Shown here one piece after another: positions 374 to 46,632 of a stretch of 48,811 nt of DNA. Under the pieces are notes generated by a model. That model did no database searches and was not told the DNA's origin. It saw nothing but the letters and a program-made list of their open reading frames with translations. Source of the DNA: Sphingobacteriales bacterium 44-15 (GTDB taxonomy: Bacteria > Bacteroidota > Bacteroidia > Chitinophagales > Chitinophagaceae); contig MKWG01000034.1 of assembly GCA_001899685.1 (NCBI GenBank), forward strand, positions 1 through 48,811, given 5' to 3'. Position 1 is the stretch's first letter; each line of letters begins with the position of its first letter. The translations under genes were made by a program, and so were the position numbers.

Positions 374-411
374 TCACGTCTCACGTTTCACGTTTCACGT
401 TTCACGTTTCA
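374..411. repeat. Heptamer tandem array (TCACGTT)n
   Basis: TCACGTC followed by four exact TCACGTT units and a partial TCA, all in register at 7-bp steps. This is the cleanest tandem copy of a dispersed heptad family that recurs in intergenic spaces across the window. It sits between the metallophosphatase gene (505-1758) and the PafA-like gene. The only open frame crossing it encodes a low-complexity string (HVSRFTFH) and is not a gene. Confidence 0.9.
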
Positions 412-504
412 TCTTCACCCCCGACCCTGGTTGATATCATCCTGTAAAACGAAAATTGCAATGTAATACATTTGTCAGGAATGAATGTTAATAACTGTTA
501 ATTA

Positions 505-1758
505 TTAATCCTCTACGAGCCTGTTCTTCTTACCTTTTTGTTTGATCAATTTAAACGAGTCATACAGATCCCCGGTTGAGGTATAGCATTTATAGCTGAG
601 TGTATTTCCTTCCACGGTAATGAGCTGGTATAGTTGAAGATGACCGCCGTTTTTATCCATCCATGGCTTCTGGTTTTCCTTATACATTTTGGAACCGCTC
701 ATCGAAATGACATACATGGTGCCGGAAAATTCATTTGCGGCAGCTCCGGTGATCTTTTTCATCCCTCGCGCATACGCATGATCGTGACCCTGCATCACAA
801 GATCTACTTTGTATTTGTCGAACAGGGGCTTGAAATTATCTCGCATCCAGGGATTGTCTCTTTGCGGGGCAATGGAATATATGGGATGGTGAAATATTAC
901 ACAGGTCCATTTATTGGGATTATGCTGCAATACAGAGTCAAGCCATTGCTTCTGGCTTTCCAGGTCAGCGGGCACTTCTTCGGCCTGGTTGGAATTGAGC
1001 GAGATAAAACGCATTCCCTGTATATCGGTAAAGTATGCTGTTTCTTTTACTCCTTCCGGCCCGTTTTCGGGGAGTGTGAACTGGGGGCGCCAGAATGCAG
1101 AAAGCTTATCATCTTTGGTTTTAGCATATTCATGATTGCCGGGAGACATAATGCCCGGGATCATGCTGTGAATGAAGCTGCCTGCGTAAAACAATTCTCC
1201 CCATTCATTATCAAATTCTCCGCGGTTTACTATATCGCCTGCATACATGATTGCATTTGCATCGGGCATTTTAGCATAGGCTGACCGGATAAGACCGGAC
1301 CAGAATGACTTAATACCGGTTTGTACATCTCCTATGTATATAAAAGATATTTTATCTCCCGGGAGCCCTGCTGTGGTAACGTGAAACCATTCGCTCCAAT
1401 GGTTTTCCCTGCCTACGCGATACATATACTTTGTACGCGGCTTCAGGTTTTTAAAAATAAAAGAATGATAAAAAACGGAAATATTTCCAAGTTGAAATTT
1501 CTCTGATACGGCAGACTGCCTTACGGCATTTAAGGATGCTGCCGGATCCGCGTTTGTTTCCATTATTTCTGCAAAGCCGGTTTGAATACTGTCGCATGTT
1601 CTCCAGGTAACGGCAAGAGAGGTAGACGGATCTTCGGTGACATTTAAAACTATTCTGTCAGGATCAGGACCTGCAGGAAACGGATTGGTTTGTGTAAACG
1701 CTGTAACAGTAATGGTTGTCAATACAATTGCAGCAATATACTTTAGTCTTTTTTTCAT
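505..1758 (-). CDS. Secreted purple-acid-phosphatase-like metallophosphoesterase
   Basis: 417 residues. Signal peptide at 1-22 (KKRLKYIAAIVLTTITVTAF). A fibronectin-like N-terminal domain (about 30-130) with VLNVTEDPSTSLAVTWRT is typical of purple acid phosphatases and is followed by a calcineurin-type catalytic domain. The metal-binding blocks are in order: YIGDVQ (Asp144), YAGDIVNRG (Asp175), SPGNHEY (207-210), FHHP (290-291) and QGHDHAYAR (324-327). The first block lacks the usual GDxH His, which is common in the PAP branch. Predicted periplasmic phosphomonoesterase or phosphodiesterase. It starts 19 bp after the stop of the upstream NPP-like gene, so the two are probably co-transcribed. 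Substrate unknown. Confidence 0.88.
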   Translation of the reverse strand: MKKRLKYIAAIVLTTITVTAFTQTNPFPAGPDPDRIVLNVTEDPSTSLAVTWRTCDSIQTGFAEIMETNADPAASLNAVRQSAVSEKFQLGNISVFYHSFIFKNLKPRTKYMYRVGRENHWSEWFHVTTAGLPGDKISFIYIGDVQTGIKSFWSGLIRSAYAKMPDANAIMYAGDIVNRGEFDNEWGELFYAGSFIHSMIPGIMSPGNHEYAKTKDDKLSAFWRPQFTLPENGPEGVKETAYFTDIQGMRFISLNSNQAEEVPADLESQKQWLDSVLQHNPNKWTCVIFHHPIYSIAPQRDNPWMRDNFKPLFDKYKVDLVMQGHDHAYARGMKKITGAAANEFSGTMYVISMSGSKMYKENQKPWMDKNGGHLQLYQLITVEGNTLSYKCYTSTGDLYDSFKLIKQKGKKNRLVED

Positions 1759-1777
1759 TATGCAGGATAAGGTTTCT

Positions 1778-2878: not shown

Positions 2879-2931
2879 TTGTATAATTTATTATTATCTG
2901 TCAGATATGCTATTCCTGCCGTATATATCCC

Positions 2932-4581: not shown

Positions 4582-4670
4582 ATTGATTTAATTTTCTCTG
4601 TTTTTACAGGGTTTATTGCATTCAGCGGTTCCCATCAGGAGCGAAAAACAGGCTGTTTATACTCAATGTG

Positions 4671-4740
4671 GTGAAAACGTGAGAGGTGAAATGGGAGACG
4701 TGAGACTTTCACCTCTCACGTTTGTCTTTTCACGTTTCAC
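4671..4740. repeat. Heptad repeat hairpin with 17-bp perfect stem
   Basis: Degenerate GTGAAAC/GTGAGAG heptads run into their reverse complements. Bases 4675-4691 and 4707-4723 form a perfect 17-bp inverted repeat with a 15-base loop, flanked by further imperfectly paired units. It lies just beyond the end of the minus-strand LuxE-like gene, where a transcript-end structure would be useful. It lacks a T-run long enough for a standard intrinsic terminator. Confidence 0.85.
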
Positions 4741-4749
4741 CCAGCAGTA

Positions 4750-5757: not shown

Positions 5758-5767
5758 AGGGAATATT

Positions 5768-5775
5768 TACATTTG
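5768..5775 (+). promoter_or_regulatory. Candidate Bacteroidota -7 box TACATTTG
   Basis: Matches the TAnnTTTG consensus of the primary sigma factor in Bacteroidota and lies 18 bp before the lipoprotein ATG at 5794. No convincing -33 TTG was found at the expected distance, so support is moderate. Confidence 0.35.
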
Positions 5776-5793
5776 TTTATTGAATACAGTTAT

Positions 5794-6276
5794 ATGAAAC
5801 TAAGTCTGGCAATATCTTTTTTAGTTTTGATAATAGTTTCCTGCAGCAAAGATAAGTTTAGCAGTAAACCTACTTTGAAATTAAAGGAAGTCAGTGGGAA
5901 TTATCTTCCTTTAGGTGATGATTATGCTATCCGGTTCACACTGGAATATACGGATGCCGATGGTGATATTGCCGGGCAGCCTTTCAGTATTGAAAAGCTG
6001 TCTTCTTCAGCATCTCCCGACAACCCCTGTAGTAACGGGAATGAACCTTACTATACTGACAGTACTAAATATGCTATACCGGCAGATGTGCCGGCAACCG
6101 CCAATCAAAAAGGCGAGATTGTAGTGACGATCGCGGGCCTGCTTGCCAATCCACAGAAATGCGATGAGTATGACAGTACTGAGCAGGCTACTTTTAAATT
6201 CTGGTTTAAAGATCAGGCAGGCAATGTGAGTGATACGGTGACAACTCCTCCTGTTACCATCCAGAAGATCCGGTAA
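5794..6276 (+). CDS. Small secreted lipoprotein of unknown function
   Basis: 160 residues from the ATG at 5794; the open frame extends upstream to a TTG, but the lipoprotein signal begins at MKLSLAISFLVLIIVSC with lipobox IVSC (Cys17). The mature part has LEYTDADGDIAG, a calcium-binding-like or cadherin/Ig-like strand motif, and ends in a beta-rich segment containing WFKDQAGNVSDTVTTPP, so an Ig-like fold is plausible. No catalytic motif is visible. The gene is divergent from the LuxE-like gene and followed by a heptad repeat, so it is probably monocistronic. Confidence 0.75.
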   Translation: MKLSLAISFLVLIIVSCSKDKFSSKPTLKLKEVSGNYLPLGDDYAIRFTLEYTDADGDIAGQPFSIEKLSSSASPDNPCSNGNEPYYTDSTKYAIPADVPATANQKGEIVVTIAGLLANPQKCDEYDSTEQATFKFWFKDQAGNVSDTVTTPPVTIQKIR

Positions 6277-6362
6277 GGTATGAGGTGTAAGGCCTTACAT
6301 GTCTCCTATATCGTATCTGTTTCACGTCTCACTTTTGACATCTCTCGTATTCACCATTCACC
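6270..6362. repeat. Heptad repeats plus 14-bp palindrome after a lipoprotein gene
   Basis: Directly after the stop at 6276 there are GTAAGGT/ATGAGGT units, a perfect palindrome TGTAAGGCCTTACA (6286-6299), and then heptads TTTCACG TCTCACT TTTGACA and ATTCACC ATTCACC. It belongs to the same dispersed family as the other arrays in the window. Confidence 0.7.
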
Positions 6363-6414
6363 CGGCGAAAGTAATGTGCATATTATAATTAATCCCTCGC
6401 TGATTGGTCAGGAT

Positions 6415-6436
6415 TTATTTATTTTTGAATAAATAA
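6415..6436. promoter_or_regulatory. Inverted repeat overlapping a -7 box upstream of the M42 peptidase
   Basis: TTATTTATT, TTTG, AATAAATAA: a perfect 9-bp inverted repeat with a 4-base spacer. The -7-like box TATTTTTG occupies 6420-6427 inside it, 20 bp before the ATG at 6447. This could be an operator over the promoter, or chance symmetry in AT-rich DNA. Confidence 0.4.
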
Positions 6437-13387: not shown

Positions 13388-13427
13388 TGCTCATAGCCCA
13401 TAGCTGACAGCTCCCAGCTCAGCCCCT
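13388..13427. repeat. AGCTxxx-type heptad repeat
   Basis: CATAGCC CATAGCT GACAGCT CCCAGCT CAGCCCC: 7-bp-period units of the AGCTATC variant, in the divergent spacer between the TonB receptor and the metallo-hydrolase gene. Similar units recur at 22219, 33600 and 46574. Confidence 0.65.
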
Positions 13428-13454: not shown

Positions 13455-14765
13455 ATGAAAAAAGTTCAACTCTGTCTTGCCCTTTTCATTGGGATATGTT
13501 ATGCTGAGGTTTTTGCCCAGGTGGCTGTGCCGGGTAAGCCATTGCCCCCGTGGCAGGAGGGTTTTCTGGATCTGCATCACATCAATACCGGCTGGGGTGA
13601 TGCGGCGTTTTATATTTTCCCCGACGGCACTACCATGCTTTTTGATGCCGGTGAGATCAATCCCACCGATCCGAGGGCATTCACTCCGCGCAATGCGCCG
13701 ATGCATCCTAATTACAGCAAAAGAGCCTATGAATGGATCGCATGGTATATTCAGCATGTTTCACCATTGAAAGAAAAAGCAGTTATTGACTATGCGGCCA
13801 TTTCTCATTTTCATGATGATCATTTTGGCGGATGGTACCCGGGAGCTAAGCTGTCGTCCACAGGCAAATATGATCTTACAGGCATGCCGGGAGTGGGAGA
13901 GCTGATACCCATCAGGCAGCTTCTCGACCGTGGCTATCCTGATTATGATTATCCCTTTGATATGAAGAACAGCGCTTTGGCGTCGTTGAGCGGGGAGATC
14001 AATTTTTTTAAGACCATGAAGAATTATATGGATTTTTCCGCTGCGCAACGACAACAAGGAATGATCACAGAACGGTTCAAAGCCGGCAGCCGTACACAGA
14101 TCAGGATGAAATACGCCCCCTCGAAATATCCTGGTTTTTATGTGCAGAATGTAAAAGCCAACGGGCTGATATGGACCGGCAAAGATTCTTCCACCTACCA
14201 GTTTTTGCCTCCTGTTAAACCGGAGGATCGTTCTACATGGCCGAGCGAGAACGGGCTGAGCCTGGTGCTTACCATACATTACGGGCCGTTCGTATACTAT
14301 AGCGGGGGGGATTGCGGCGGCATAGTTTCTTACGGAGACCCGGCATGGAAAGACATAGAAACCCCCGTTGCCAGGGTCATAGGCGAAGTGGATGTCGCTA
14401 CCCTGGATCATCATGGCAACAGGGATGCGGTGAATGAATTCCAGGTCAAAACTTTTAAACCCCGGGTGTGGATCGAGCAATCCTGGTCGTCGGATCATCC
14501 CGGGGAAGAAGTGCTGCGCCGCCTGACCACGCCTGTATTGTATGAAGGTCCGCGGGATCTGTTCACCACCAATATGCTTGAGGCCAACCGGTATGTTATA
14601 GGAACATTAATTGACAGGTCGTACAAAAGCCTGCAGGGACATATTGTGGTAAGAGTAATGCCCGGCGGCAAAACCTATTATGTCATTATTCTTGATGACA
14701 GCCGGGAAGATATGCCAGTGAAGGATGTGTTTGGACCTTATACTGCTAAAGCAAGTGGTAAGTGA
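13455..14765 (+). CDS. Secreted metallo-beta-lactamase-fold hydrolase
   Basis: 436 residues with a signal peptide (1-22, ending VFAQ). The fold is recognised from LHHINTGWGDAAFYIFPDG (strand plus metal-site scaffold), FDAGE (64-67) and the metal-binding HFHDDHFGG (His118, His120, Asp122, His123), followed by GGDCGG and TLDHHGNRDAV further on. The N-terminal layout is like the ComEC/Rec2-type branch of the superfamily, but as a free secreted protein without membrane segments. Substrate not predictable; nuclease, phosphodiesterase and lactonase activities all occur in this branch. It heads the plus-strand series that continues with the AraC regulator. Confidence 0.8.
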   Translation: MKKVQLCLALFIGICYAEVFAQVAVPGKPLPPWQEGFLDLHHINTGWGDAAFYIFPDGTTMLFDAGEINPTDPRAFTPRNAPMHPNYSKRAYEWIAWYIQHVSPLKEKAVIDYAAISHFHDDHFGGWYPGAKLSSTGKYDLTGMPGVGELIPIRQLLDRGYPDYDYPFDMKNSALASLSGEINFFKTMKNYMDFSAAQRQQGMITERFKAGSRTQIRMKYAPSKYPGFYVQNVKANGLIWTGKDSSTYQFLPPVKPEDRSTWPSENGLSLVLTIHYGPFVYYSGGDCGGIVSYGDPAWKDIETPVARVIGEVDVATLDHHGNRDAVNEFQVKTFKPRVWIEQSWSSDHPGEEVLRRLTTPVLYEGPRDLFTTNMLEANRYVIGTLIDRSYKSLQGHIVVRVMPGGKTYYVIILDDSREDMPVKDVFGPYTAKASGK

Positions 14766-14881
14766 TAAGTGATAAGTGGTAAGGCATAATGGTTACAGGT
14801 TTCACGTCTCACGTCTCACCTTTCACATTTGACGTTTTCACCATTCATCATTCACAATTCACCTCTCACATTCATTCACCA
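14763..14881. repeat. Heptad repeat array reaching the AraC start codon
   Basis: GTAAGTG ATAAGTG ATAAGTG GTAAGGC is followed after a short break by TTTCACG TCTCACG TCTCACC TTTCACA, ATTCATC ATTCACA ATTCACC and ATTCATTCACC, ending one base before the ATG at 14882. The array is open in the AraC frame, so automated callers may extend the gene 31 codons into it. Confidence 0.8.
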
Positions 14882-15911: not shown

Positions 15912-16835
15912 ATGCCACCAGCAACTGCTGTTCAGAATACAACTTATCATAAGCCTGATACAAAATCCATGCAGTTGACTTTCGGCGTTAGTACCTGGTT
16001 GTGGCTTTCTCCTTTTGCAACGAAAAACGCCCCGGCGCTTTTTGCTAAAATAAAAAGAATAGGCTTTGATATGGTGGAGATAGCTGTAGAAGACCCGGCA
16101 CTGATAGATACCGCCAAAATAAAAGAAGCGCTCGATGCGAACGGGCTTGCGGCAGCCATTTGCGGCGCTTTTGGCGCAGACCGGGATATCTCCTGCGATG
16201 ATAAGAGCATACAGCAAAACGCGATCAACTATATACATGACTGCATAAATATCGCTGCAGAGATCGGCGCCCCCGTTTTTGGCGGACCTATGTATACCGC
16301 CGTGGGAAAAGCGAGAATGGTAAGTAATGAGCAGAGAAAAAAGGAATGGGATACTGCTGTCAGCAACCTGCGTGTTGTAGCAGCAAGGGCTGCTTCATCA
16401 GGCACAAAGCTCGCAATTGAGCCACTCAACCGTTTTGAATCGGACATGGTGAATACTGCTGCCGATGCTATGCGTATGGTAACGGATATTGATCATTCTT
16501 CCGTAGGCATAGGGCTGGATGGGTTTCACATGAACATTGAGGAACCGGATATTGAGAAAGCAATATTGACGGCAGGCGATAAATTATTTCATGTGCAGGT
16601 GGCTGACAACTACCGCGGCACGCCGGGCACCGGGCAAACCAACTGGCAGGCATGGCGCAGGGGACTGGAAGCAATTAATTACAAAGGGGCTGTCTCCATA
16701 GAAAGCTTTACGCCGGACAATACTACCCTTGCCGGGGCGGTATGCATCTGGAAGAAGCTTGCGGAAAGCCAGGATCTGTTCGCGGAAAACGGGCTGAAGT
16801 TTTTGAAAAAGCTTTTTGGAATTAAACAATTGTGA
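15912..16835 (+). CDS. Sugar isomerase/epimerase, xylose-isomerase-like TIM barrel
   Basis: 307 residues. N-terminal VSTWLWLSPF (27-35) resembles D-tagatose 3-epimerase and related TIM-barrel proteins. Predicted metal ligands are Glu170 (LAIEPLNRFE), Asp203 (GIGLDGFHM), Gln229 (FHVQVADNYRG) and Glu264 (SIESF). Alignment by eye puts Gln229 where ketose 3-epimerases have His, as in hydroxypyruvate isomerase-like members, so specificity should not be read as psicose/tagatose epimerase. The start at 15912 is uncertain; the Met codon at 15969 gives the more usual N-terminus. Probably acts in the cytoplasm on a sugar or keto-sugar delivered by the neighbouring oxidation genes. Confidence 0.85.
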   Translation: MPPATAVQNTTYHKPDTKSMQLTFGVSTWLWLSPFATKNAPALFAKIKRIGFDMVEIAVEDPALIDTAKIKEALDANGLAAAICGAFGADRDISCDDKSIQQNAINYIHDCINIAAEIGAPVFGGPMYTAVGKARMVSNEQRKKEWDTAVSNLRVVAARAASSGTKLAIEPLNRFESDMVNTAADAMRMVTDIDHSSVGIGLDGFHMNIEEPDIEKAILTAGDKLFHVQVADNYRGTPGTGQTNWQAWRRGLEAINYKGAVSIESFTPDNTTLAGAVCIWKKLAESQDLFAENGLKFLKKLFGIKQL

Positions 16836-16912
16836 GACGTGAAAGGGGAGAGGTGAGATTTTCACGCCTGCCTGTCGGCAGACAGGTTTGACCTCTGACG
16901 TTTCACGATTAG
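16832..16912. repeat. Heptad repeat hairpin with nested GC palindrome
   Basis: GTGAGAC GTGAAAG and GTGAGAT heptads face TTTGACC TCTGACG TTTCACG. Between them lies the palindrome CCTGCCTGTCGGCAGACAGG (16867-16886). A block from 16859 to 16890 is identical to 29473-29504. The array follows the epimerase stop codon. Confidence 0.85.
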
Positions 16913-17168: not shown

Positions 17169-18305
17169 ATGCCAGACAAAAAAATTAATATAGCGATTGT
17201 TGGTCTCGGCTTTGGCGCTGAGTTCATTCCTATTTACCAGCGACACCCCAATGCTGCTATGTATGCCATCTGCCAGCGCAACAAAGAGCAGCTTGATAAG
17301 ACAGGAGATGCATTTGGCATTGAAAAAAGGTACACCGATTATGATGAGCTCCTCAAAGATCCTGCTATAGATGCGGTGCATATCAATACGCCCATACCCG
17401 ATCATGCCGCGCAGTCGCTCAAAGCGCTGAAAGCAGGGAAGCATGTGGCCTGTACAGTGCCCATGGCAACAACGGTAGAAGAATGCAGGCAGATTGTAGA
17501 AACAGTAAAAGTAACAGGACTTACCTATATGATGATGGAGACGGTGGTATATGCAAGAGAGTTTTTGTTTATGAAAGAGCTGTATGATAAAGGCGAGCTG
17601 GGTAAATTGCAGTTTCTCAAAGCAAGTCACCAGCAGGATATGGACGGATGGCCGAATTATTGGCCGGGCCTTCCCCCCATGTATTATGCTACGCATTGCG
17701 TGGGGCCGGTATTGGGGCTGACCCGTGCAGAAGCGGAATATGTGTCCTGCTTTGGTTCAGGCACTATCCGGGAGGAACTGCACAAATATTATCACTCTCC
17801 TTATGCCGTGGAAAGCACGCATATTAAGTTCCGCGATTCTGATCTGAGCGCTTATGTGTACAGGTCGTTGTTTGATACGGCGCGGCAATACAGGGAGAGC
17901 TTTGAGGTGTACGGCTCAAAAAAATCCGTGGAGTGGCCGCTGATCGAAGGCAGACCGCTGGTGGTGCATACTGCCAAGAAGCCGGAGCCGGGGATCCCGG
18001 AGGAAATGGAAGCGCCGGATTATGCGCATCGCCTGCCGGAGCCTATTCAGCGCTTTACCACAGGCGGTGTATATGATACGGACGAGCATCAGCATCTTTC
18101 ATTTACGCAGGGAGCAGGGCATGGCGGATCGCACCCACACTTAGTGCACGAATTTGTGTCGGCGCTGCTAGAAAAACGGGAGCCGTTTCCCAATGCACGC
18201 CAATCGGCAAACATTACCTGCGTGGGTATATTAGCGCACGAATCGGCACAGAAAGGCGGGGAGATCATAAGGTTGCCGGAGTTTAGTTTGAAGGGGAAGG
18301 TGTAA
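17169..18305 (+). CDS. Gfo/Idh/MocA-family protein lacking the EKP lysine
   Basis: 378 residues, no signal peptide. An N-terminal Rossmann fold with NIAIVGLGFGAEF (7-19), then HINTPIPDHA (71-80) and GKHVACTVPMATT (90-102). In typical members the last block is CEKPMA; here Glu-Lys is replaced by Thr-Val (Thr96-Val97), so the conserved lysine of the active site is missing. A His in YYATHCVGP (His176) is at the site of the family's conserved substrate His. The C-terminal alpha/beta domain follows. Members act on sugars with bound NAD(P), including some that hydrolyse glycosides by transient 3-keto formation. The altered motif makes a plain dehydrogenase assignment unsafe. Neighbours (epimerase, ThuA/propeller protein) point to a keto-sugar substrate. 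Confidence 0.85.
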   Translation: MPDKKINIAIVGLGFGAEFIPIYQRHPNAAMYAICQRNKEQLDKTGDAFGIEKRYTDYDELLKDPAIDAVHINTPIPDHAAQSLKALKAGKHVACTVPMATTVEECRQIVETVKVTGLTYMMMETVVYAREFLFMKELYDKGELGKLQFLKASHQQDMDGWPNYWPGLPPMYYATHCVGPVLGLTRAEAEYVSCFGSGTIREELHKYYHSPYAVESTHIKFRDSDLSAYVYRSLFDTARQYRESFEVYGSKKSVEWPLIEGRPLVVHTAKKPEPGIPEEMEAPDYAHRLPEPIQRFTTGGVYDTDEHQHLSFTQGAGHGGSHPHLVHEFVSALLEKREPFPNARQSANITCVGILAHESAQKGGEIIRLPEFSLKGKV

Positions 18306-18366
18306 GGCATAGGGAGTAAGGTTGTGAAAGGTGAGATTTTCACGTCTCACTTCTAACGTTTCACGG
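18300..18366. repeat. Heptad repeat hairpin after the Gfo/Idh/MocA gene
   Basis: GTAAGGC ATAGGGA GTAAGGT, then GTGAAAG GTGAGAT facing TTTCACG TCTCACT and ACGTTTCAC. The GTGAAAG GTGAGA / TCTCAC...TTTCAC halves can pair. It begins at the stop codon. Confidence 0.75.
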
Positions 18367-22218: not shown

Positions 22219-22308
22219 AAGCTGTGAGCTATCGGCTGTCAGCCATCAGCTCTGAGCTATCAGGTTTCGGGGAGTAAGCTGATAGCCAATAGCTCACAGC
22301 TCACACCC
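22219..22308. repeat. AGCTATC-type repeat hairpin, 24-bp arms
   Basis: Two bases after the ThuA-propeller stop, bases 22220-22243 pair with 22278-22301 over 24 positions with only two mismatches. The units follow a roughly 7-bp rhythm (AGCTATC, GGCTGTC, AGCCATC, AGCTCTG). A stable stem at a transcript 3' end without an adjacent T-run suggests 3'-end protection or attenuation rather than a classic terminator. Confidence 0.8.
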
Positions 22309-23513: not shown

Positions 23514-23518
23514 TTGAA

Positions 23519-23549
23519 CGATAAACGACAAACGATAAACGTGAAACGG
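23519..23549. repeat. Heptad array (GATAAAC/GACAAAC/GTGAAAC)
   Basis: ACGATAAACGACAAACGATA and the following bases resolve into GATAAAC GACAAAC GATAAAC GTGAAAC, exact 7-bp steps, beginning a few bases after the preceding stop codon. One-sided, no facing inverted units. Confidence 0.8.
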
Positions 23550-23624
23550 CAGCATCTCTACCTGTCCCGTCAGAAATAACATTGTTTTGTAATGCCTGTA
23601 ACACTATTCCCCCCGGATAATTAG

Positions 23625-24800: not shown

Positions 24801-24808
24801 CACTGTAT

Positions 24809-24852
24809 CAAACGTGAAATGTCAGACGGGAGACGTGAATGCTGCTCCACGA
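24809..24852. repeat. Heptad repeat after the TlpA-like gene
   Basis: CAAACGTGAAATGTCAGACG and GGAGACGTGAAT: GTGAAAT GTCAGAC GGGAGAC GTGAATG in 7-bp steps, starting 8 bases after the stop and lying upstream of the intrinsic terminator. Confidence 0.7.
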
Positions 24853-26229: not shown

Positions 26230-26342
26230 TCACATTAATGGTTTTACTTTAATAAGCTATAATACTTCCGGCAGTACAATGAAGTAATATTACTACAGTG
26301 ATGTAGAGATAAACAACGGACTTGCTGAAGAAATTACTGTTA

Positions 26343-26464
26343 TGTCAAACGTGAAACCTGCCAGCCGGCAGGCTGGTGTGAGACGTGAAACATTCTTTCA
26401 CCTTTATCTCCTGCCTGCCATACCTACGGCAGGTAAACCGGTAGGCAAGTCTCACTTTTCACGA
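26343..26464. repeat. Heptad array with two nested GC-rich palindromes
   Basis: GTCAAAC GTGAAA is followed by CCTGCCAGCCGGCAGGCTGG (26357-26376), then TGTGAGAC GTGAAAC, TTTCACC, a second GC-rich inverted element of CCTGCC/GGCAGG type (26410-26446), and TCTCACT TTTCACG. The heptads appear interrupted by the palindromes, as though these had been inserted. The array lies 3' of the minus-strand DUF4293 gene. The stretch 26135-26342 otherwise shows only the AT-rich inverted repeat. Confidence 0.8.
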
Positions 26465-26496
26465 TAACACACAGACATAATTTACCTGACTTAACA

Positions 26497-26913
26497 TTAC
26501 CGGAGACGGTCAATGCTTTTTACCAGCTTTATATCTTTGTAAATACCTCTGATAGCGAGCAGGAGTAGAACGGGGATTAAAAAATACAGTCCTGCCCACA
26601 AAGTGAAAGTGCCGTTGGTGAATGATTTCACTTTCAGATAGTACAATAAGCTGCAAATAATATACAGCCCGATAGCTATCAGGCTGAGCTTTATCTGCAT
26701 GCTCCTGTTTTTATAAAGAAAAATGGCAATGAGCGGCACTATGCCGAGCGCTATGGTGAATATGAGGAGAAAAAGGCTGCTCCCTGCATTGATCTGGTCA
26801 AATTCATTAATGCCGTTAGTAATACGGGTACCGCTGTAGATGGAAAGCCGGACCGTAAGAAAAGCCAGAACACCTGCGAGCAGAAGCCACAAAGTTTGAA
26901 TGCGCTGTAACAT
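26497..26913 (-). CDS. DUF4293 family membrane protein
   Basis: 138 residues with four predicted membrane helices (about 6-24, 46-64, 73-91 and 103-121). The N-terminus MLQRIQTLWLLLAGVLAFL is the hallmark of DUF4293, a small inner-membrane family restricted to Bacteroidota with no assigned function. It lies 57 bp downstream (minus strand) of the unrelated-looking glyA end region's opposite side, that is, the glyA stop at 26971 precedes its start, so the two could be co-transcribed. Length is normal for the family. Confidence 0.8.
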   Translation of the reverse strand: MLQRIQTLWLLLAGVLAFLTVRLSIYSGTRITNGINEFDQINAGSSLFLLIFTIALGIVPLIAIFLYKNRSMQIKLSLIAIGLYIICSLLYYLKVKSFTNGTFTLWAGLYFLIPVLLLLAIRGIYKDIKLVKSIDRLR

Positions 26914-26970
26914 AGATTAATTTATTAATGCCCTAAACCTTACTCCTCACACCCTTTCACCCTTCTCCTT

Positions 26971-28272
26971 TCACCCCACTGCCACTTCTCCCGCCTCTAT
27001 TTCAGGATACAGCGGGAACTCCTTCATAAACTCATACACTTCTTCTTTTACTGTCTCAATTTTTTTGTTGTCGTCAACATTGTTCAGCACAATATCAATC
27101 ATGTCTACAATAGGTTCCATGTGCTCTTCTTTTAATCCGCGGGTAGTAATGGCCGGTACGCCTACTCTTATTCCCGAAGTAATGAAGGGGCTTTTATCAT
27201 CAAAAGGCACTGCATTTTTGTTTAAAGTGATATGCGCTTTGTCAAGTGTTTCCTGGGCTTTCTTGCCGGTAATGTTTTTATTCCGAAGATCAATCAGCAT
27301 AAGGTGATTGTCTGTGCCGTTGCTGATAAGATTATAGCCTCTTTTTACAAATGATCCTGCCATTGACTGTGCATTGGCGATTATCTGCTTTGCATAGGAG
27401 GTATATTCGTTGGTCAGAACTTCGCCGAAGGAAACCGCTTTTGCTGCAATAACATGCTCCAGCGGGCCGCCCTGCATACCGGGGAACACTGCCAAGTCGA
27501 GCAATGCGCTCATGGGCCTGATATTACCTTTGGGGTCTTTAATGCCAAACGGGTTGTCAAAGTCGTGCCGCATCATGATAATGCCTCCCCTGGGACCACG
27601 GAGCGTTTTATGGGTGGTGGAGGTTACTATATGACAATGCTCAAACGGGTCATTCAAAAGTCCTTTGGCGATCAGCCCGGCGGGGTGCGCTATATCTGCC
27701 AGTACCAGGGCGCCTATGGAATCCGCTATTTCACGGATACGTTTATAATCCCAGTCGCGGCTGTAAGCAGAAGCTCCGCAAATGATCATTTTAGGTTTTT
27801 CTGCTTTGGCGGTAGCCTCCATCTGATCATAATCTACAGTGCCGGTATCTTTTTTAACACCGTAAAAAAGCGCCTGGTAGTTTTTACCGCTGAAATTGGC
27901 AGGACTGCCATGGGTAAGATGCCCGCCCATGCTAAGGTCGAGCCCCAGTATTTTATCGCCGGCTTTAAGGCATGCCAGGAATACGGCTGTATTAGCCTGC
28001 GCCCCGCTGTGCGGCTGCACATTTGCCCACGAAGCATTAAATATTCTTTTAAGCCTTTCAATAGCTAAGTTTTCAATCTCGTCTATCACCTCACAACCGC
28101 CGTAAAATCTTTTACCGGGATATCCTTCCGCATATTTATTGGCAGGCACCGAGCCCATGGCCTGCAGCACCTGGTATGATGTAAAGTTTTCTGAAGCGAT
28201 CAGTTCGATGCCATTACGCTGGCGTTCAAGCTCCTTCTGAATGAGGTCAAACAGTTGTGTATCTTTTTGCAT
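26971..28272 (-). CDS. glyA: Serine hydroxymethyltransferase
   Basis: 433 residues from the ATG at 28272; the open frame extends seven codons further, but the family N-terminus starts at [18 protein letters not shown]. Diagnostic segments: IELIASENF (22-30), [16 protein letters not shown] (49-64), the PLP lysine Lys222 in [13 protein letters not shown], and [16 protein letters not shown] near the C-terminus. It interconverts serine and glycine with tetrahydrofolate in the cytoplasm. Length is typical for Bacteroidota. A -7 box lies only four bases before the ATG, so the transcript may be leaderless. Divergent from the nucleotidyltransferase gene. Confidence 0.97.
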
Positions 28273-28390: not shown

Positions 28391-29383
28391 ATGAAAGCAA
28401 TAATACCAGTAGCAGGTGCAGGCACCAAGCTGCGGCCTCACACATATACTCAACCCAAGGCACTGATCCCGCTGGCGGGAAAAACCGTGCTCAGCATTAT
28501 TGTGGACCAACTGGCAGAAGCAGGCATCAAAGAATTTGTATTTATTATAGGGTATCTCGGTGATAAGATCCAGGATTATGTGAAAGAGCATTACCCTCAT
28601 CTTACCTGTCATTTTGTGTTGCAAAGTGAACGACAGGGGCTGGGACACGCTATCTTTCTTACAAAAGATATTGTGGGTGATGACGAAATTTTTATTGTAC
28701 TGGGAGATACTATTTGCGAGTATGATGTAAAAGAGGTACTGGAGAGTGAAGATTCCATGCTGGGTGTGAAGAAAGTGGATGATCCCCGCAATTTTGGGGT
28801 GGCAGAGTTGAGCGACAACGGGTTTATCGGGAAGGTGGTGGAAAAACCGCAGATACCCAAGTCCAATCTTGCGCTGGTAGGATTATACAAGATCCGGAAT
28901 ACAGCTTTTCTTTTTTCCTGCCTTGAAAACAATATAAGGGAAGGCATACGCTGCAAAAACGAATACAGCCTTACAGATGCCCTGGAGTGTATGATCATGA
29001 AAGGCGTGGCTTTTAAGTCTTTTAAAGTGCAGAACTGGTTTGATTGCGGGCGAATAGACACGCTGCTTGAAAGTAATGCCATCCTTATGAAGAAGCTGGG
29101 CGGGAAAATATCCCCGGATCATGTTTTTGAGAATGTTATTATTGTCCCGCCTGTAAGCATAGCCCGTGGATGCGAGATCAACAATTCCATTATCGGACCC
29201 AATGTAGCTGTGGGCGAGGATGCCAAAATTACCTATTCCATTGTCAGAGACTCTATTATCGGATCTTTTGCCAACCTGTATGATGTGGTTTTGCATGATT
29301 CCCTGATCGGCAGTGATACGGAAATAAAGGGCGAAACCCGCTCACTCAATATAGGGGATAATACGCAGATAGACCTGGGGTAA
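28391..29383 (+). CDS. Sugar-phosphate nucleotidyltransferase with left-handed beta-helix tail
   Basis: 330 residues. N-terminal nucleotidyltransferase with GAGTKLRPHTYTQPKAL (9-25), a slight variant of the GxGTRLRPLTxxxPKPL signature (Lys replaces Arg), LQSERQGLGHAI and the metal-binding LGDTICEYD (Asp106). A hexapeptide-repeat C-terminus from about 240 (NVIIVPPVSIARGCEINNSI, IGPNVAVGEDAKI) completes the long form seen in RmlA-like/archaeal-type dTTP/UTP:sugar-1-phosphate transferases. It makes an NDP-sugar, most likely dTDP- or UDP-glucose or a related sugar; the exact sugar cannot be told. Divergent from glyA across 118 bp. Confidence 0.88.
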   Translation: MKAIIPVAGAGTKLRPHTYTQPKALIPLAGKTVLSIIVDQLAEAGIKEFVFIIGYLGDKIQDYVKEHYPHLTCHFVLQSERQGLGHAIFLTKDIVGDDEIFIVLGDTICEYDVKEVLESEDSMLGVKKVDDPRNFGVAELSDNGFIGKVVEKPQIPKSNLALVGLYKIRNTAFLFSCLENNIREGIRCKNEYSLTDALECMIMKGVAFKSFKVQNWFDCGRIDTLLESNAILMKKLGGKISPDHVFENVIIVPPVSIARGCEINNSIIGPNVAVGEDAKITYSIVRDSIIGSFANLYDVVLHDSLIGSDTEIKGETRSLNIGDNTQIDLG

Positions 29384-29537
29384 GAGGTAAGGCATAAGGC
29401 GAAAGTAGTAAGGTAATACAGGTGAATAGGTAAAGGTGAATGCATCTGGCGTGAGAAGTGAGATGTGAAAGGTTTTCACGCCTGCCTGTCGGCAGACAGG
29501 TTTGTCGTCTCACGTTTATCGTTTGACGTTTTATGTT
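29384..29537. repeat. Long heptad array with the identical 20-bp palindrome
   Basis: GTAAGAG GTAAGGC ATAAGGC GAAAGTA GTAAGGT, then GTGAATA, GTGAATG, GTGAGAA GTGAGAT GTGAAAG, then TTTTCACG, the palindrome CCTGCCTGTCGGCAGACAGG (29481-29500), TTTG, and TCTCACG TTTATCG TTTGACG TTTTATG. Bases 29473-29504 are identical to 16859-16890. It begins directly at the stop of the nucleotidyltransferase gene. Confidence 0.85.
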
Positions 29538-29539
29538 TG
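29532..29539 (+). promoter_or_regulatory. Candidate -7 box TATGTTTG
   Basis: Full TAnnTTTG match 30 bp before the ATG at 29570, at the distal edge of the heptad array, so the array may reach into the promoter of the flavoprotein gene. Confidence 0.35.
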
Positions 29540-29569
29540 CCGTTCTAAAATCTCAAATTTCAAATCCTC

Positions 29570-31011: not shown

Positions 31012-31132
31012 TAGTAGTGAATGGTGAATAGTGAATAGGCAATGGAGAGCCGCGAAACGATAAACGTGAGAAGTGAAACGACAGACGTGAAACCTTCTCA
31101 CCTCTCACTTTTCACGTCTCACGCCTATTTAC
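31012..31132. repeat. Heptad hairpin array between a convergent pair
   Basis: GTGAATG GTGAATA GTGAATA GGCAATG, then GATAAAC GTGAGAA GTGAAAC GACAGAC GTGAAAC face TTCTCACC TCTCACT TTTCACG TCTCACG. The arms at about 31064-31078 and 31105-31119 pair with two mismatches. It lies between the 3' ends of the carboxypeptidase-regulatory-like gene and rnpB. Confidence 0.8.
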
Positions 31133-31190: not shown

Positions 31191-31197
31191 ATTTTTT

Positions 31198-31566
31198 ACT
31201 GCATGACCTGTAAGCCGGATTCTGTCGGGTGCTATCATTTATCTGGCCCCGGCATTGCTGCCGGGATCTATCTGCTTACCCTCCCCGATATCCCGGGGGA
31301 ATTTTGCCGGGCAGGCAAAAGATCGGGGTATACATAGCATTTCAGCACGCAAGGTTTACCCATATCACAGGTTACCCCATGATATCGTGAGCTCTTACCT
31401 CACATTTTCACCCTTATCACGCCTGCGGCGCGACGGTTATTTTCTGTGGCACTATCTGTTCCCGTCAGAAACGGGACCCGGCGGTTAACCGGTGCGTTGC
31501 CCTGCGCTGTCCGGACTTTCCTTGACCATCTTTTTCAGATGCCCACGATAGCACAGCCATGCAGCA
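31198..31566 (-). ncRNA. rnpB: RNase P RNA (type A)
   Basis: Read on the minus strand, the 5' half holds GGAAAGTCCGGACAG (from 31525 downwards) and the 3' end holds GACAGAATCCGGCTTACAGG (31226-31207). These are the conserved P4-forming regions at the two ends of bacterial RNase P RNA. P1 is supported by CTGCATG near 31564-31558 pairing with CATGCAG at 31205-31199. The size, about 370 nt, fits type A. It processes tRNA 5' ends as the catalytic subunit. Ends are estimated from P1 and from the upstream -7 box. Open frames across it are spurious. Confidence 0.95.
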
Positions 31567-32466: not shown

Positions 32467-32556
32467 TCATCTTGTGAATGGTGAATAGTGAATGGTGAGA
32501 GGTCAAAAGTGAGAAGTGAAATTCACCATTCACCATTGCCCATTCACCCGGACACT
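32467..32556. repeat. Heptad hairpin between convergent genes, 13-bp perfect arms
   Basis: GTGAATG GTGAATA GTGAATG GTGAGAG GTCAAAA GTGAGAA GTGAAAT turns into ATTCACC ATTCACC ATTGCCC ATTCACC. Bases 32474-32486 and 32521-32533 are perfect inverted arms. Placed exactly between two converging stop codons (32435 and 32562) with no other terminator visible. Confidence 0.88.
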
Positions 32557-33584: not shown

Positions 33585-33599
33585 CGTAATGGGAGGCAT

Positions 33600-33664
33600 C
33601 AGGTATCAGCTATTAGCCGTGAGCTATGGGCTATGAGCTGACAGCCCAAAGCTGATAGCCGTAA
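33600..33664. repeat. AGCTATC-type repeat hairpin
   Basis: ATCAGCTATTAGCCGTGAGC and the following units show the 7-bp rhythm. AGCTATGGGCT (about 33623-33633) pairs with AGCCCAAAGCT (about 33644-33654) with one mismatch. Same family as 22219-22308 and 46574-46632. It lies between the stop of the methyltransferase gene and the Smr start. Confidence 0.7.
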
Positions 33665-34249: not shown

Positions 34250-34345
34250 AGGTCAGCTATGAGCGGTAGGCAATGAATGCGTGAAACGTCAAACGGGAAA
34301 AGTGGGACAGGGAGAGGTTGCTCATCTCCTCGTTAGCAACCTTAA
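34250..34345. repeat. Mixed AGCTATG and GTGAAAC heptad repeat
   Basis: GTCAGCT ATGAGCG GTAGGCA ATGAATG CGTGAAAC GTCAAAC GGGAAAA GTGGGAC: both variants merge here without a break, arguing that AGCTATC and GTGAAAC arrays belong to one continuum. It lies in the divergent spacer between the methyltransferase and sigma-factor genes. Confidence 0.6.
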
Positions 34346-35089: not shown

Positions 35090-35136
35090 ATTGTGAACAG
35101 GCAACAGGCAATGGTGAATTCACTATTCACCCATGA
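35090..35136. repeat. Heptad hairpin inside the sigma/FecR operon
   Basis: GTGAACA GGCAACA GGCAATG GTGAATT CACTATT CACCCAT: short facing heptads in the 82-bp spacer between sigma factor and FecR genes, the only member of the family lying within an apparent operon of tightly linked function. Confidence 0.7.
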
Positions 35137-41455: not shown

Positions 41456-41639
41456 TTTGAGCCTGAAAAGATGCATTTTAAAACGGACAAAGAAAAGATA
41501 GTTACAAGGTGCAAGGTTTGTAAAGGACACAAATAAAATATAGCCATTTCGCAACACCCCCATTAATATGATAGTAATAGATGGTATTTTTACAGTGAGG
41601 CAGCATCCTGATTATTAAATTGGTAATTTTTAAGGTTTA

Positions 41640-43283: not shown

Positions 43284-43387
43284 AATACCCACATAGGGGA
43301 AACAATGTGCTGGAGATACCTATTGTTGCAGCAGTGTTGTTTGCTCATGTACAGATAAAAACTATTAATAAAATAAGATAAAGCTAT

Positions 43388-46300
43388 ATGAACAATAATA
43401 GTAGTTTTAAAAAAGCAAAACCATTTTTCAGGAAGGCAGCAAGGGTTGGACCAGCAGGTATTTCCCGGGCCGGAACTGTCAATACTTTTTTTGTGGTAAT
43501 CAGCCTGTTATTTGCCGGTTGTAAAAACGATGCTCCGGTCAGTGAAGTGCATGGGATCCGGGTGCCCCAGGGGTTTACCATCGAGCCGGTAGTGGATTCC
43601 ACTTTGATCTCTTACCCGATGTTCGCTTCTTTTGATAACCGGGGAAGACTATTTCTGTGTGAGTCAACAGGAGAGACTTTCTCCACCGAAGATCATCTCA
43701 AAAAGCCACCTTACCATATCCGTCTTTTAGAAGATAAGGACGGGGATGGCAAATTTGAGAAGAGCACCATATTCGCAGATTCACTTACCTATCCAAAAGG
43801 TGCGGTGTTTTTCCAGGGGAGCCTCTATGTGGCCTCTGCGCCGAATCTTTTAAAACTGACCGATACTGATGGTGACGGCATTGCCGATAAAAGGGAAGTG
43901 CTTCTTTCTGGATGGGTACTGAATCATAATGCCGCAGCCTTTGGCGGGCCTTTTATGGGGCCCGACGGGTGGCTGTACCTGACTGATGCGCGGCGCGGCT
44001 TTGATATTACTACTAAGGAAGGTAAAGAACTGAAAGGTAAGGGAGCCAGGATATGGCGCTGCCGCCCCGATGGCAGCGGGCTGGAGTCTTTTAGCGGAGG
44101 AGGGTTTGATAATGCCGTAGAACTGGTGTTTATGCCGGGCGGGGAAACCATCGGTACCATGACCTATTTCACCGATCCGATGAATGGCTTCCGCGATGCG
44201 CTGATGCACTGGGTATATGGCGGCGTTTATCCCAAGCCGCAACAGGTGATAGCAGATGACAGCCTGAAACTGACCGGCGACTTGATGCCTGTAATGACAA
44301 AGCTGCCGCGCATAGCGCATTCAGGTTTGATGCGTTATGAAGGTTCGGCATGGGGCGATACTTTTAAAGGAAATCTTTTCAGCGCACAATTCAATACAGG
44401 GCGTATCATGCGGCATATTATCTCGCCCGATGGCGCTACTTATCAAACGAAAGATGAGCCGTTCATGACTTCTTCCAGTCCGGACATACATCCTACGGAT
44501 GTGCTGGAAGATGCCGACGGCAGTCTGCTGGTGGTAAATACCGGCGGATGGTTTATTGCCGGTTGCCCATTGTCGGTGGTAGCGAAGAAGGATGTGAAGG
44601 CTGCTATTTACCGTATCAGGAAACCTGATGCGAAGGCGGTGGATGATCCCTGGGGCCGGAAATTGAATTTTACGGATATGACAGTAAAAGACCTGGTGCA
44701 GTATGTTACGGACGAACGTCCTGCGGTGCGCAGCCAGGCGATAGAACAACTGGTAATAAAAGGAGCGCCTGCCGCAGAGGAAATAAAAGGCACACTTCTC
44801 TCTTCGGCAAATGAAGAAGCGCGCACAGCGGCAGTCTTTATGCTTTACCGTATCAATGCACCGGAAGCGACAATGGATGCCATACGCACAGCGCTGGAGG
44901 ATAAAAGCGCTGTAGTGCGCATGGCTGCCGCCAGGGTATTGGGGTTATCTAAAGACAGGCAGTCTGTTGCAAAGCTGGCGGAGAAGGTGCAAAAGGATGA
45001 AGCGCCTGTGCGCCGCCAGGCTGCTACTGCGCTGGGACAGATCGGCGATAGCCAGGCCATCAGCGCGCTCATAAAGGCTTCTTCCGATCCCAACGACCGT
45101 TTTGTGGAGCATGCTATCATTTATGCCCTCATCACGCTCCGGTCGCCTGAACCGCTCGTTCAGGCATTGGCCGATACCTCTGCCAATATCCGTAAAGCGG
45201 CTCTGATTGCCCTTGACCAGATGGATGGTTCGCCATTAAAGAAAAATCAACTGGTACCATTGCTGAACAGCGAAAATGAACAACTGCAAAATGCCGGTAT
45301 ATGGGTGGCCCTGCATCATCCTGACTGGGCTGATGTTGTTGTGGATTTTTTGAAGCATAATCTTAATTCCCAAAACCTTGCTGCCGACATCCGCAGCCTG
45401 ATGATCGCATTCAGCGGTAATGCGCAAATGCAGCAGTTTATTACAGCGCAGTTAGATAATAAAGATCTCGCTTTGTCTAAAAAAATATTGTTGCTGGATA
45501 TTGTCAATCATGCTGAAGTCAGGAAATTACCCGATCTGTGGATACGGCAACTCGGCAACTTACTCCGTAGCAGTGATCCGGAGATCCGTTCGGAGGTGTT
45601 GAATGTGATCAAATCAAGAAGCATACCTTCATTGAATAAGGAGCTCAATCAAATTGTTCAGGATGCAAAAATACCAGCCGGCTTCAGGCTTAAAGCGCTG
45701 GGTGCGCGGCTTATGTCTGATCCGGATTTAACTGCTCCGGAATTTGAGATGGTCTCAACATATTTGGGTCCGAAGAATGAATCACCTGTACGGCAGGAAG
45801 CATCCCGTCTTTTAACACAGGCTAAGCTGAGCGAAGGGCAGTTAGTTACGCTTGCCAGTGAACAGGTTGCTACAACGGATGTTTTTCTTTTACCCGATCT
45901 TGTAAACGCATATAAGGGCGGGAAAAGTGAAGCGGCAGGAAAGGCGCTGATCACCGCGCTGGAAACTTCAAAAGACCGCCTGGACAATCTCTCTGTTCCT
46001 GATATGCAAAAGCTGTTTACCTCCTATCCTCAGCCGGTTCAGGATGCTTCGGGCTCACTTATAAAACTGTTGAAAGAAAAGCAGGCGTCAAGGCTGGAAG
46101 AGCTGGAAAAATTACAGTCGCAGCTTACGAAAGGAGATGTAGCGGAAGGCAGGCAGCTTTTTTTCAATAAGGCCACTTGCTTTGTCTGTCATTCTGTGGC
46201 AGGGAAGGGAGGCGAATTTGGCCCGGATCTGTCTAATATCGGGGAGATCCGTTCACGTCACGACATTCTTGAAGCCGTGCTGTATCCCAGCGCCAGCTTC

Positions 46301-46573
46301 GCCCGGGAATATGAAACGTCTAAAATAGTAACCAAAACAACTTCGCATACAGGGATCATTAAAGAGCAATTGCCTGATGTGATCGTGGTGGCTACAGGAC
46401 CAGGATCCAAAGTGCGGATTCCCCGGAATGAAATTGTATCTATCGAACCGGAAAATACATCCCTGATGCTTCCAGGTCTGCTCAAACAGCTGAATATCCA
46501 GGAAATATCAGACCTGGTGGCGTATCTTGAGTCTCTTCCCAATGGAATGGGGCAGATAAAAAGCCATGAGTGA
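43388..46573 (+). CDS. PVC-type beta-propeller / HEAT / cytochrome c lipoprotein
   Basis: 1061 residues with lipobox LFAGC (Cys45). A beta-propeller related to PVC-type membrane-bound dehydrogenases (about 58-410) has VPQGFTIEPVVDSTLISYP, EDKDGDGKFEK and DTDGDGIADKRE calcium-like loops. HEAT repeats (about 430-900) include VVRMAAARVLGLSKD and PVRRQAATALGQIGDSQAIS. The C-terminal cytochrome c domain has CFVCH (931-935), a distal Met probably in the last 60 residues, and a closing DLVAYLESL. It shares propeller and HEAT architecture with the 18723 protein but ends in heme instead of copper and lacks ThuA. Likely a periplasmic or surface sugar dehydrogenase that hands electrons to the respiratory chain. 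Confidence 0.88.
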   Translation: MNNNSSFKKAKPFFRKAARVGPAGISRAGTVNTFFVVISLLFAGCKNDAPVSEVHGIRVPQGFTIEPVVDSTLISYPMFASFDNRGRLFLCESTGETFSTEDHLKKPPYHIRLLEDKDGDGKFEKSTIFADSLTYPKGAVFFQGSLYVASAPNLLKLTDTDGDGIADKREVLLSGWVLNHNAAAFGGPFMGPDGWLYLTDARRGFDITTKEGKELKGKGARIWRCRPDGSGLESFSGGGFDNAVELVFMPGGETIGTMTYFTDPMNGFRDALMHWVYGGVYPKPQQVIADDSLKLTGDLMPVMTKLPRIAHSGLMRYEGSAWGDTFKGNLFSAQFNTGRIMRHIISPDGATYQTKDEPFMTSSSPDIHPTDVLEDADGSLLVVNTGGWFIAGCPLSVVAKKDVKAAIYRIRKPDAKAVDDPWGRKLNFTDMTVKDLVQYVTDERPAVRSQAIEQLVIKGAPAAEEIKGTLLSSANEEARTAAVFMLYRINAPEATMDAIRTALEDKSAVVRMAAARVLGLSKDRQSVAKLAEKVQKDEAPVRRQAATALGQIGDSQAISALIKASSDPNDRFVEHAIIYALITLRSPEPLVQALADTSANIRKAALIALDQMDGSPLKKNQLVPLLNSENEQLQNAGIWVALHHPDWADVVVDFLKHNLNSQNLAADIRSLMIAFSGNAQMQQFITAQLDNKDLALSKKILLLDIVNHAEVRKLPDLWIRQLGNLLRSSDPEIRSEVLNVIKSRSIPSLNKELNQIVQDAKIPAGFRLKALGARLMSDPDLTAPEFEMVSTYLGPKNESPVRQEASRLLTQAKLSEGQLVTLASEQVATTDVFLLPDLVNAYKGGKSEAAGKALITALETSKDRLDNLSVPDMQKLFTSYPQPVQDASGSLIKLLKEKQASRLEELEKLQSQLTKGDVAEGRQLFFNKATCFVCHSVAGKGGEFGPDLSNIGEIRSRHDILEAVLYPSASFAREYETSKIVTKTTSHTGIIKEQLPDVIVVATGPGSKVRIPRNEIVSIEPENTSLMLPGLLKQLNIQEISDLVAYLESLPNGMGQIKSHE

Positions 46574-46632
46574 GCGGGCGATGGGCTTTGAGCTGATAGC
46601 TCACTGCTCATACCCGATAGCTGAAACCTGAA
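46574..46632. repeat. AGCTATC-type repeat
   Basis: GCGATGGGCTTTGAGCTGAT, AGCTCACTGCTCATACCCGA and TAGCTGAAACC: degenerate units with limited self-pairing, inserted between the cytochrome lipoprotein stop and the DUF1080 start. Confidence 0.6.

Follow-up and report, generated by a model that had tools for sequence, protein, structure and literature searches.

Intergenic heptanucleotide arrays in a Chitinophagaceae genome are probably the arms of small hairpin elements that can enclose an S23 gene

Short tandem arrays with a constant step of 7 bp are scattered through the intergenic spaces of a 48,811-nucleotide stretch of the genome of Sphingobacteriales bacterium 44-15 (Bacteroidota; Chitinophagaceae; contig MKWG01000034.1, positions 1 to 48,811), hereafter termed the window, and raise the question of what kind of element keeps a period while its words change from site to site. 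S23 (PF05635/TIGR02436) is encoded by the open reading frame (ORF) of some 23S rRNA intervening sequences (IVSs). The analysis reported here indicates that the heptad arrays are probably the arms of small hairpin elements, whose full form encloses an S23 gene and of which the window holds the ORF-less (solo) forms. When loci of different genomes are compared, inverted arms of shared words are found around S23, one orthologous site is seen in an empty, a solo and an S23-bearing state and, within the genus of the window, one locus carries what appears to be a mostly deleted S23 gene between arms.

The 7-bp arrays are real and genome-wide. Autocorrelation at lag 7 reached 0.334 in the spacers of the window and 0.295 in those of 400 kb of contig C3, versus approximately 0.25 in coding DNA, and was also elevated in these spacers at lags 14 and 21; the periodic excess expected from an earlier, sequence-only reading of the window is therefore present in spacers and absent from coding DNA in both regions. 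Lag 3 was raised as well, in the C3 spacers and in coding DNA. The pattern (GTGARAY)x3, allowing at most two mismatches, matched 732 times in the 6.0-Mb genome, versus 0 for the reversed control pattern. A heptad hidden Markov model (HMM) trained on spacers was run on the window and 800 kb of contigs C3 and C11, the sample to which the array counts below refer, and gave 238 arrays with a score >18, 215 of them in spacers; 53 "arrays" still scored on the reversed, uncomplemented sequence, indicating that weak calls are noisy, those of family F4 (see below) most of all. In the window, the HMM lists 29 arrays in 17 spacers, and Tandem Repeats Finder together with direct reading adds those at 14753 and 34250, giving approximately 19 sites, in line with the at least 18 claimed previously; arrays sit at all of the coordinates named at that time (Table 1). 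Arrays are nearly as dense in co-directional (2.92 per kb of spacer) as in convergent spacers (3.34) and are sparse in divergent ones (0.59); in co-directional spacers 102 lie nearer the stop and 43 nearer the start, which agrees with the previous impression that they begin close to stop codons. The statement that they never lie inside a gene was too strong, as 23 of the 238 are more than 80% contained in an ORF by crude ORF calling.

It had also been stated that the period is conserved and the sequence is not. The period is indeed fixed, but the words recur throughout the genome as four families that share one register, RTNARNN: F1, G[TA][GCT]ARA[N] (approximately GTGARAC); F2, GTGAATR; F3, RTSRGCT; and a weak F4, RTAAGKN. 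The grading of variants noticed at 34250 is a passage from F3-like to F1-like words within this register (by eye). Positions 1, 4 and 6 of F1 are nearly fixed and positions 2, 3, 5 and 7 are free, as if its units were drawn under a constraint. A feature overlooked by the sequence-only reading is that the arrays are paired head to head in inverted orientation, that is, as hairpins: neighbours within 120 bp are oriented (+,-) in 64 cases, (-,+) in 2, (+,+) in 8 and (-,-) in 6, with fewer than 10 bases between the arms in 45 of the 64 (+,-) pairs, and the corresponding numbers for co-directional spacers alone are 46, 2, 6 and 4. Arms of four units are the commonest (4.0-4.9 units in 44 of the 126 paired arms). 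Of ten window hairpins subjected to RNA folding, seven have z < -2.5, the remainder having -1.79, -1.74 and -0.48.

The association with S23 emerges from other loci, since the S23 HMM detects no S23 gene in the window. A word-based scan of named genomes yielded at least 120 loci, of which 80 were examined; arrays occur in many phyla among the matches listed, with the named genera including Terrimonas, Flavihumibacter and Cnuella, which belong to the Chitinophagaceae. In the 80 loci, neighbouring arrays within 250 bp are oriented (+,-) in 20 cases, (+,+) in 7 and (-,+) in 0, and in three of them (L111, L131 and L159) the arms have an S23 gene between them or in close vicinity. S23 loci were then sought by PF05635 alone, and lag-7 arrays were scored within 200 bp upstream and 250 bp downstream of the gene. 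For the best-scoring S23 loci of relatives (L209-L238; n = 27, as 3 of 30 with short flanks were left out), an array was present upstream in 22, downstream in 21 and on both sides in 19, other lags giving at most 2 for both sides; for 30 loci of array-bearing genomes, mostly from other phyla (L239-L268), the numbers were 21, 22 and 20, with at most 3 for other lags. Among 15 loci from cyanobacterial plasmids (15 of 24 records were taken, and L333 and L334 are identical), 13 had an array upstream, 9 downstream and 8 on both sides, with other lags again giving at most 3 for both. Ordinary ORFs of at least 100 aa carry lag-7 sequence on both sides in 33 of 645 cases in this genome, in 3 of 447 in other relatives and in 7 of 79 in G032, whose stretches had been picked for arrays.

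At least 21 bp of lag-7 sequence is found on each side of the gene in 73 of 90 S23 loci, and in these the likeness of the upstream arm to the reverse-complemented downstream arm of its own locus is 0.535, versus 0.395 for reverse-complemented downstream arms from other loci and 0.379 for the downstream arm read directly; inverted likeness exceeds direct likeness in 66 of the 73, and the own downstream arm ranked at 0.91. Arms of the same S23 locus also pair better than swapped arms (mean z -1.88 for 87 loci, 3 of the 90 with short flanks being left out), and two S23 elements are predicted to fold with the arms paired around the ORF (z -5.61 and -3.41). Inverted arms thus surround a sense S23 ORF in most S23 loci, in this genome and in others, as they do in IVSs, and the gene upstream of S23 is co-directional in 72 of 85. 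In L303 and L312 the order of the arms is reversed (TCAC-type before and GTGA-type after the S23 gene), and the step of L312 looks like 8 bp rather than 7 bp. In this genome, S23 copies are flanked by F2 arms (C24), F3 arms (C2) and F4 arms (C45).

The occurrence of arrays is associated with that of S23 across genomes. The F1 pattern was found in 0 of 21 S23-less and 50 of 97 S23-bearing relatives (118 genomes, this one included; p = 2.7e-6; the 21st S23-less genome, G116, was assigned by elimination), and in 0 of 15 versus 21 of 44 when one genome per genus of the family was taken (p = 4.5e-4). PF05635 was present in 44 of 50 array-bearing genomes, mostly from other phyla, and in 0 of 14 well-known control genomes. 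The pattern is patchy, with 0 to 585 matches in the other genomes: G032, which holds near-perfect heptad runs, has 585 and one other genome of the same genus has 0. In G032, the words of the arms of four S23 copies recur by eye in solo arrays, and in profile comparison these copies match 4, 1, 0 and 8 of 27 solo arrays, together 48%, versus 0% for the S23 arms of G000, G015 and G024. The stretches of G032, G003 and G006 were mostly picked at sites of known matches, which raises their array rates. By eye, orthologous spacers within the genus of the window carry heptads of other words.

Several junctions were captured in more than one state. On cyanobacterial plasmids, cas10 and cmr3 are separated by 12 bp in Picosynechococcus PCC 7002, and by 428 bp that include S23 and arms in Picosynechococcus PCC 7003. 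In Nostoc, the interval from TraM to the next gene is empty in two records (51-52 bp), contains S23 with GGGAACA arms in two others (489 and 496 bp, one heptad apart) and is occupied by a 260-bp S23-less heptad hairpin in ATCC 53789. Between cas6 and cas4, two records have S23 and heptads, a third has a 36-bp spacer of ATTACGA heptads and a fourth has an unrelated 245-bp insert. Three such plasmid loci (L323, L327 and L329) place S23 and heptads inside operons of clustered regularly interspaced short palindromic repeats (CRISPR), at cas6/cas4 or cas10/cmr3. Within the genus of the window, the gene downstream of S23 copy C24 comes after an S23 gene flanked on either side by F2-type heptads, both here and in G006; at the same locus, G007 was read to hold F2 arms around the C-terminal end of S23 alone, G001 has no arms, and the neighbourhood differs in the other loci seen. 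The G007 locus would be an intermediate on the way from the full element to the solo one.

On this basis, the full element would consist of inverted heptad arrays around a gene for the four-helix-bundle protein S23; its insertion site would be a stop/start junction, and in most cases it would have the orientation of the upstream gene. In the transcript the arms may pair into a long stem that RNase III could cut, releasing the insert; by analogy with IVSs, such excision from mRNA would make insertion at stop/start junctions nearly harmless to the host operon. The S23 protein may in turn bind the arms, in which case the 7-nt step would be fixed by the geometry of the protein or of the stem while the words drift. 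The sequence-only reading had proposed a repeat-reading protein or RNA, for which the S23 genes embedded in arrays now supply a candidate; we infer binding from the position of the gene, the constraint on period rather than word and the five chains of each of the solved relatives 2gsc and 2rld. S23 also resembles, presumably, the Avd protein of diversity-generating retroelements. The passages of PMC4990558 on S23 describe a pentameric ring; 2gsc is protein XCC0516, which is probably the Xanthomonas campestris S23p of that source. S23 protein likeness weakly predicts arm words, and only among close relatives (rho 0.093 across two sets, 107 of 2000 permutations as high), which fits a protein that reads the step or the stem better than one that reads words.

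A number of observations weigh against this explanation, of which the main ones are a missing partner for F1 and a word-blind sample. F1 (GTGARAC) is the commonest family here and has no intact S23 copy in this genome; a weak S23 candidate on C14 was considered and rejected, as no arms are present there. In spacers sampled without regard to words, no clear difference was apparent between 10 S23-less genomes (5 arrays in 36 kb) and 12 S23-bearing genomes free of F1 (7 in 32 kb). Furthermore, 47 of the 97 S23-bearing relatives lack the F1 pattern, as does G118, a further relative with one S23 copy and 0 F1 matches; 6 of the 50 array-bearing genomes have no S23 match; and 17 of the 90 S23 loci, which stand outside the arm comparisons, lack 21 bp of lag-7 sequence on one or both sides. 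The generic mobile-gene family Y1_Tnp, used as a control, also shows an association with the pattern, though a less strict one (6 of 32 genomes lacking a match versus 44 of 86 having one, p = 0.0016), so that part of such a signal can come from genomes being rich in mobile genes in general. The solo arrays of this genome match the arms of its own S23 copies in 7% of cases, those of G015 in 18% and those of G032 in 15% (profile comparison). Over all pairs, the correlation of S23 protein likeness with arm words is weak (rho 0.148, 16 of 2000 permutations as high), and the idea that the protein dictates the words was dropped. Finally, in solo hairpins the two arms are, unit by unit, no better complements of each other than swapped arms are (mean z -0.03 +/- 0.16 for 54 of 63 pairs).

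The arrays might instead be heptanucleotide microsatellites grown by polymerase slippage and retained in spacers since 7 is not divisible by 3, with hairpins and S23 being secondary. Heptamers are reported to be the most frequent long simple repeats in the majority of genomes studied, and 7-nt slippage has been proposed (Mrazek 2007, as cited in the relevant passage of PMC4679880); one-unit changes do occur, as in the 7-bp difference between Nostoc L325 and L326 and in Coxiella strains with 2 or 3 heptamer units (in the strains treated in the IVS passages of PMC4990558), and the near-perfect runs of G032 are of the expected kind. Slippage-driven growth, also suggested by the sequence-only reading, predicts that neighbouring units are more alike than units of different arrays. 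This was slightly so for F3 (0.693 versus 0.647) and F4 (0.547 versus 0.453), but the two best-defined families behaved otherwise (F1, 0.668 versus 0.681; F2, 0.724 versus 0.763), so that slippage is not the main source of F1 and F2. Since it also leaves unexplained both the inverted pairing (64:2 and 20:0) and the flanking of one gene family on both sides, slippage as the overall cause is considered unlikely. Selection for 3'-end signals, in which units such as GTGA and RTAA supply stops in every reading frame or the hairpins terminate transcription or stabilise mRNA, would account for the stop-proximal position of the arrays, their scarcity in divergent spacers, the folding of most window hairpins and the fact that the outer stop, at offset -4, -11 or -18, is the array's own TGA in 13 of 40 cases among the 80 loci of the word-based scan. 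However, a second arm is needless for stop supply and is still inverted in co-directional spacers (46:2), which rules against stop supply as the cause of orientation; a hairpin function requires no 7-bp step; swapped solo arms pair equally well; and some S23 arms elsewhere have no stop codon in their unit (GGGAACA, GGGGAGT and GGAGACA). We regard this explanation as very improbable.

Repetitive extragenic palindromic (REP) sequences and bacterial interspersed mosaic elements (BIMEs), with their REP-associated tyrosine transposases (RAYTs), and miniature inverted-repeat transposable elements (MITEs) are short dispersed intergenic palindromes with a partner gene. Elements of this type, moved by a RAYT or by an IS630-type DNA transposase (for the TA-ended elements alpha, gamma and delta) with the heptads as subterminal binding sites, recommend themselves by several F1 copies that share their flanks and bear TA...TA ends with terminal inverted repeats. 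These TA-ended dispersed elements are approximately 105-165 bp long (G000 C11:8521-8625, C11:94330-94434, C3:241733-241837 and C3:53680-53786, in addition to 26335-26499 in the window) and have one common end near TAGTGYTATGTCAAACGTGAAAC, whereas their other ends differ; the two alpha copies on C11 (at 8521 and 94330) are nearly identical, which suggests recent copying. Only 12 inverted-repeat pairs shorter than 320 bp were found, however, in the sample with 215 spacer arrays, and no shared flanks were seen by eye around F2 and F3 hairpins. Neither partner was supported: this genome has no intact DDE_3 transposase, only one fragment below the cut-off, and dependence on Y1_Tnp fails in the 6 of 32 genomes mentioned above, G019 among them with 168 matches. 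The arrays further differ from REP, BIME and MITE sequences in having heptad arms and a partner gene inside the hairpin. Such transposition is thus a poor candidate for the arrays as a whole, and hairpin elements with S23 in their full form are the preferred explanation.

Table 1. Positions of heptad arrays and related elements in the window. HMM, found with the heptad HMM; z, RNA folding; last column, sites already named by the sequence-only reading.
Positions	Strand or arms	Feature	Evidence	Named earlier
372..411	-	single F1 array (GTGAAAC)	HMM, sequence	yes
4675..4740	+ arm 4675-4705, - arm 4707-4740	F1 hairpin	HMM; z -4.45	
6272..6348	+ 6272-6292, - 6319-6348	F4 + array, F1 - array	HMM	
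13389..13421	-	single F3 array	HMM	
14753..14869	F1 array -	F4-type array 14753-14783 (RTAAGTG), F1 array from 14799	sequence; outside HMM listing	yes (14753-14783)
16832..16907	+ arm 16832-16858, - arm 16883-16907	F1 hairpin, CCTGCCTGTCGGCAGACAGG palindrome between arms	HMM; z -3.84	
18286..18365	+ 18286-18321, - 18338-18365	weak F4 + array, F1 - array	HMM; z -1.74	
22220..22308	arms 22220-22270 and 22277-22308	F3 hairpin; word family as in arms of S23 copy C2:73762	HMM; z -7.10	yes
23517..23552	+	single F1 array (GATAAAC/GACAAAC/GTGAAAC)	HMM	yes
24808..24839	+	single F1 array, then ordinary GC-rich terminator-like hairpin	HMM, sequence	
26335..26499		dispersed element alpha: TA...TA ends, terminal inverted repeat near TAGTGYTAWGTYAA, internal F1 heptads, nested CCTGCC palindromes	z -5.27 (26335-26465)	
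26931..26990	-	weak F4/F1 array	HMM	
29377..29566	+ 29377-29442 and 29450-29473, F1 - arm 29497-29544	composite: + arrays, CCTGCC palindrome, F1 - arm, TCTCAAA units to next gene	HMM; z -3.48 (29445-29550)	
31015..31126	+ arm 31015-31093, - arm 31096-31126	hairpin: + arm F2 then F1, - arm F1	HMM; z -2.60	
32474..32548	arms 32474-32519 and 32521-32548	F2 hairpin; word family as in arms of S23 copy C24:18020	HMM; z -4.95	yes
33590..33661		F3 hairpin	HMM; z -1.79	yes
34250..34325	+	mixed array, F3-like words passing into F1-like	by eye; outside HMM listing	yes
35093..35132		short F2 hairpin	HMM, sequence; z -0.48, not significant	
46591..46631	-	single F3 array	HMM	yes

The GC-rich palindrome CCTGCCTGTCGGCAGACAGG and its relatives recur in the middle or the arms of heptad hairpins (16859-16882, 26357-26440 and 29474-29500), as if these were a preferred site. 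The layered heptad hairpin at 31015-31126 shares its spacer with a class A RNase P RNA gene (31195-31564, minus strand), the sole window match to Rfam at gathering scores. In L073 (14575-14862; G032 C2:34575-34862), L116 and L160, an ordinary intrinsic terminator is located inside or next to heptad arms, and L073 has concentric layers, with F1 outside and F2 inside on both arms.

Cyanobacterial heptanucleotide repeats are known as short tandemly repeated repetitive (STRR) sequences. Like STRR-type repeats, the arrays of this genome are tandem intergenic heptamers, and the likeness is not in period only, as had been supposed, since heptads on cyanobacterial plasmids also flank S23. TAACTGA repeats are described in the corresponding passages of PMC4679880 for Beggiatoaceae, cyanobacteria and Bacteroidetes and, together with STRRs, share with the present arrays a period of 7, a mostly intergenic location and a patchy distribution; a term search of the text of that paper finds no mention of S23, and the S23 link made here comes from plasmid heptads, not from chromosomal STRRs. 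The Xanthomonas GGGAATC or (GGGANTN)n and Nostoc GGGGAYT repeats, discussed as G-quadruplexes in PMC4692102, are likewise degenerate heptads in which some positions are fixed and others free; they favour four units, include some inverted copies and are infrequent between divergent ORFs, and S23 is absent from the discussion and the passages of that paper on these repeats. The 23S rRNA IVS of Coxiella burnetii, as the passages on it in PMC4990558 describe, comprises a stem, an S23 ORF, GACAGAT heptamers before the ORF and an RNase III site at the first heptamer. The elements described here resemble it in their inverted arms, which form a stem around a sense S23 ORF, in the heptamers before that ORF and in a sporadic distribution; the IVS is termed selfish in the same passages. 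They differ in that they lie between protein genes, that both arms are heptad arrays, that many are ORF-less and that the RNase III cut is only predicted. The window arrays occupy spacers of protein genes, one being also beside the RNase P RNA gene, and the plasmid S23 genes lie among protein genes and not in a 23S or 16S rRNA helix; because the class resembles rRNA IVSs without their defining location, it is classed as a variant of the IVS kind and not as an IVS.

Heptamer repeats of cyanobacteria, Xanthomonas and other bacteria have been on record for a long time without an accepted cause, S23/TIGR02436 proteins are widespread and little understood in function, and a keyword search of the open-access literature gave no general S23-heptad link among the matches listed. 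The present findings suggest that the heptamer repeats scattered through bacteria are parts of a single widespread, largely unnoticed element family. A bolder version, which we hold to be possible but rather doubtful, is that most dispersed heptamers (STRRs, Beggiatoaceae TAACTGA, Xanthomonas GGGANTN and those of this genome) would form one class of mRNA-level intervening sequences, on which a ring-shaped S23 would step 7 nt at a time along RNA or DNA of any sequence, so that selection would hold the step and not the words, S23 then being a protein of a selfish element rather than of the ribosome. The elements may account for the "23S rRNA IVP" listed among CRISPR-linked genes (in the portion of PMC10910872 concerned with these genes) and may represent a transcript-cutting element in ordinary operons, CRISPR operons included. 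An S23 gene inside the repeats supplies them with a partner and with a testable idea, namely a protein that may bind in steps of 7 nt.

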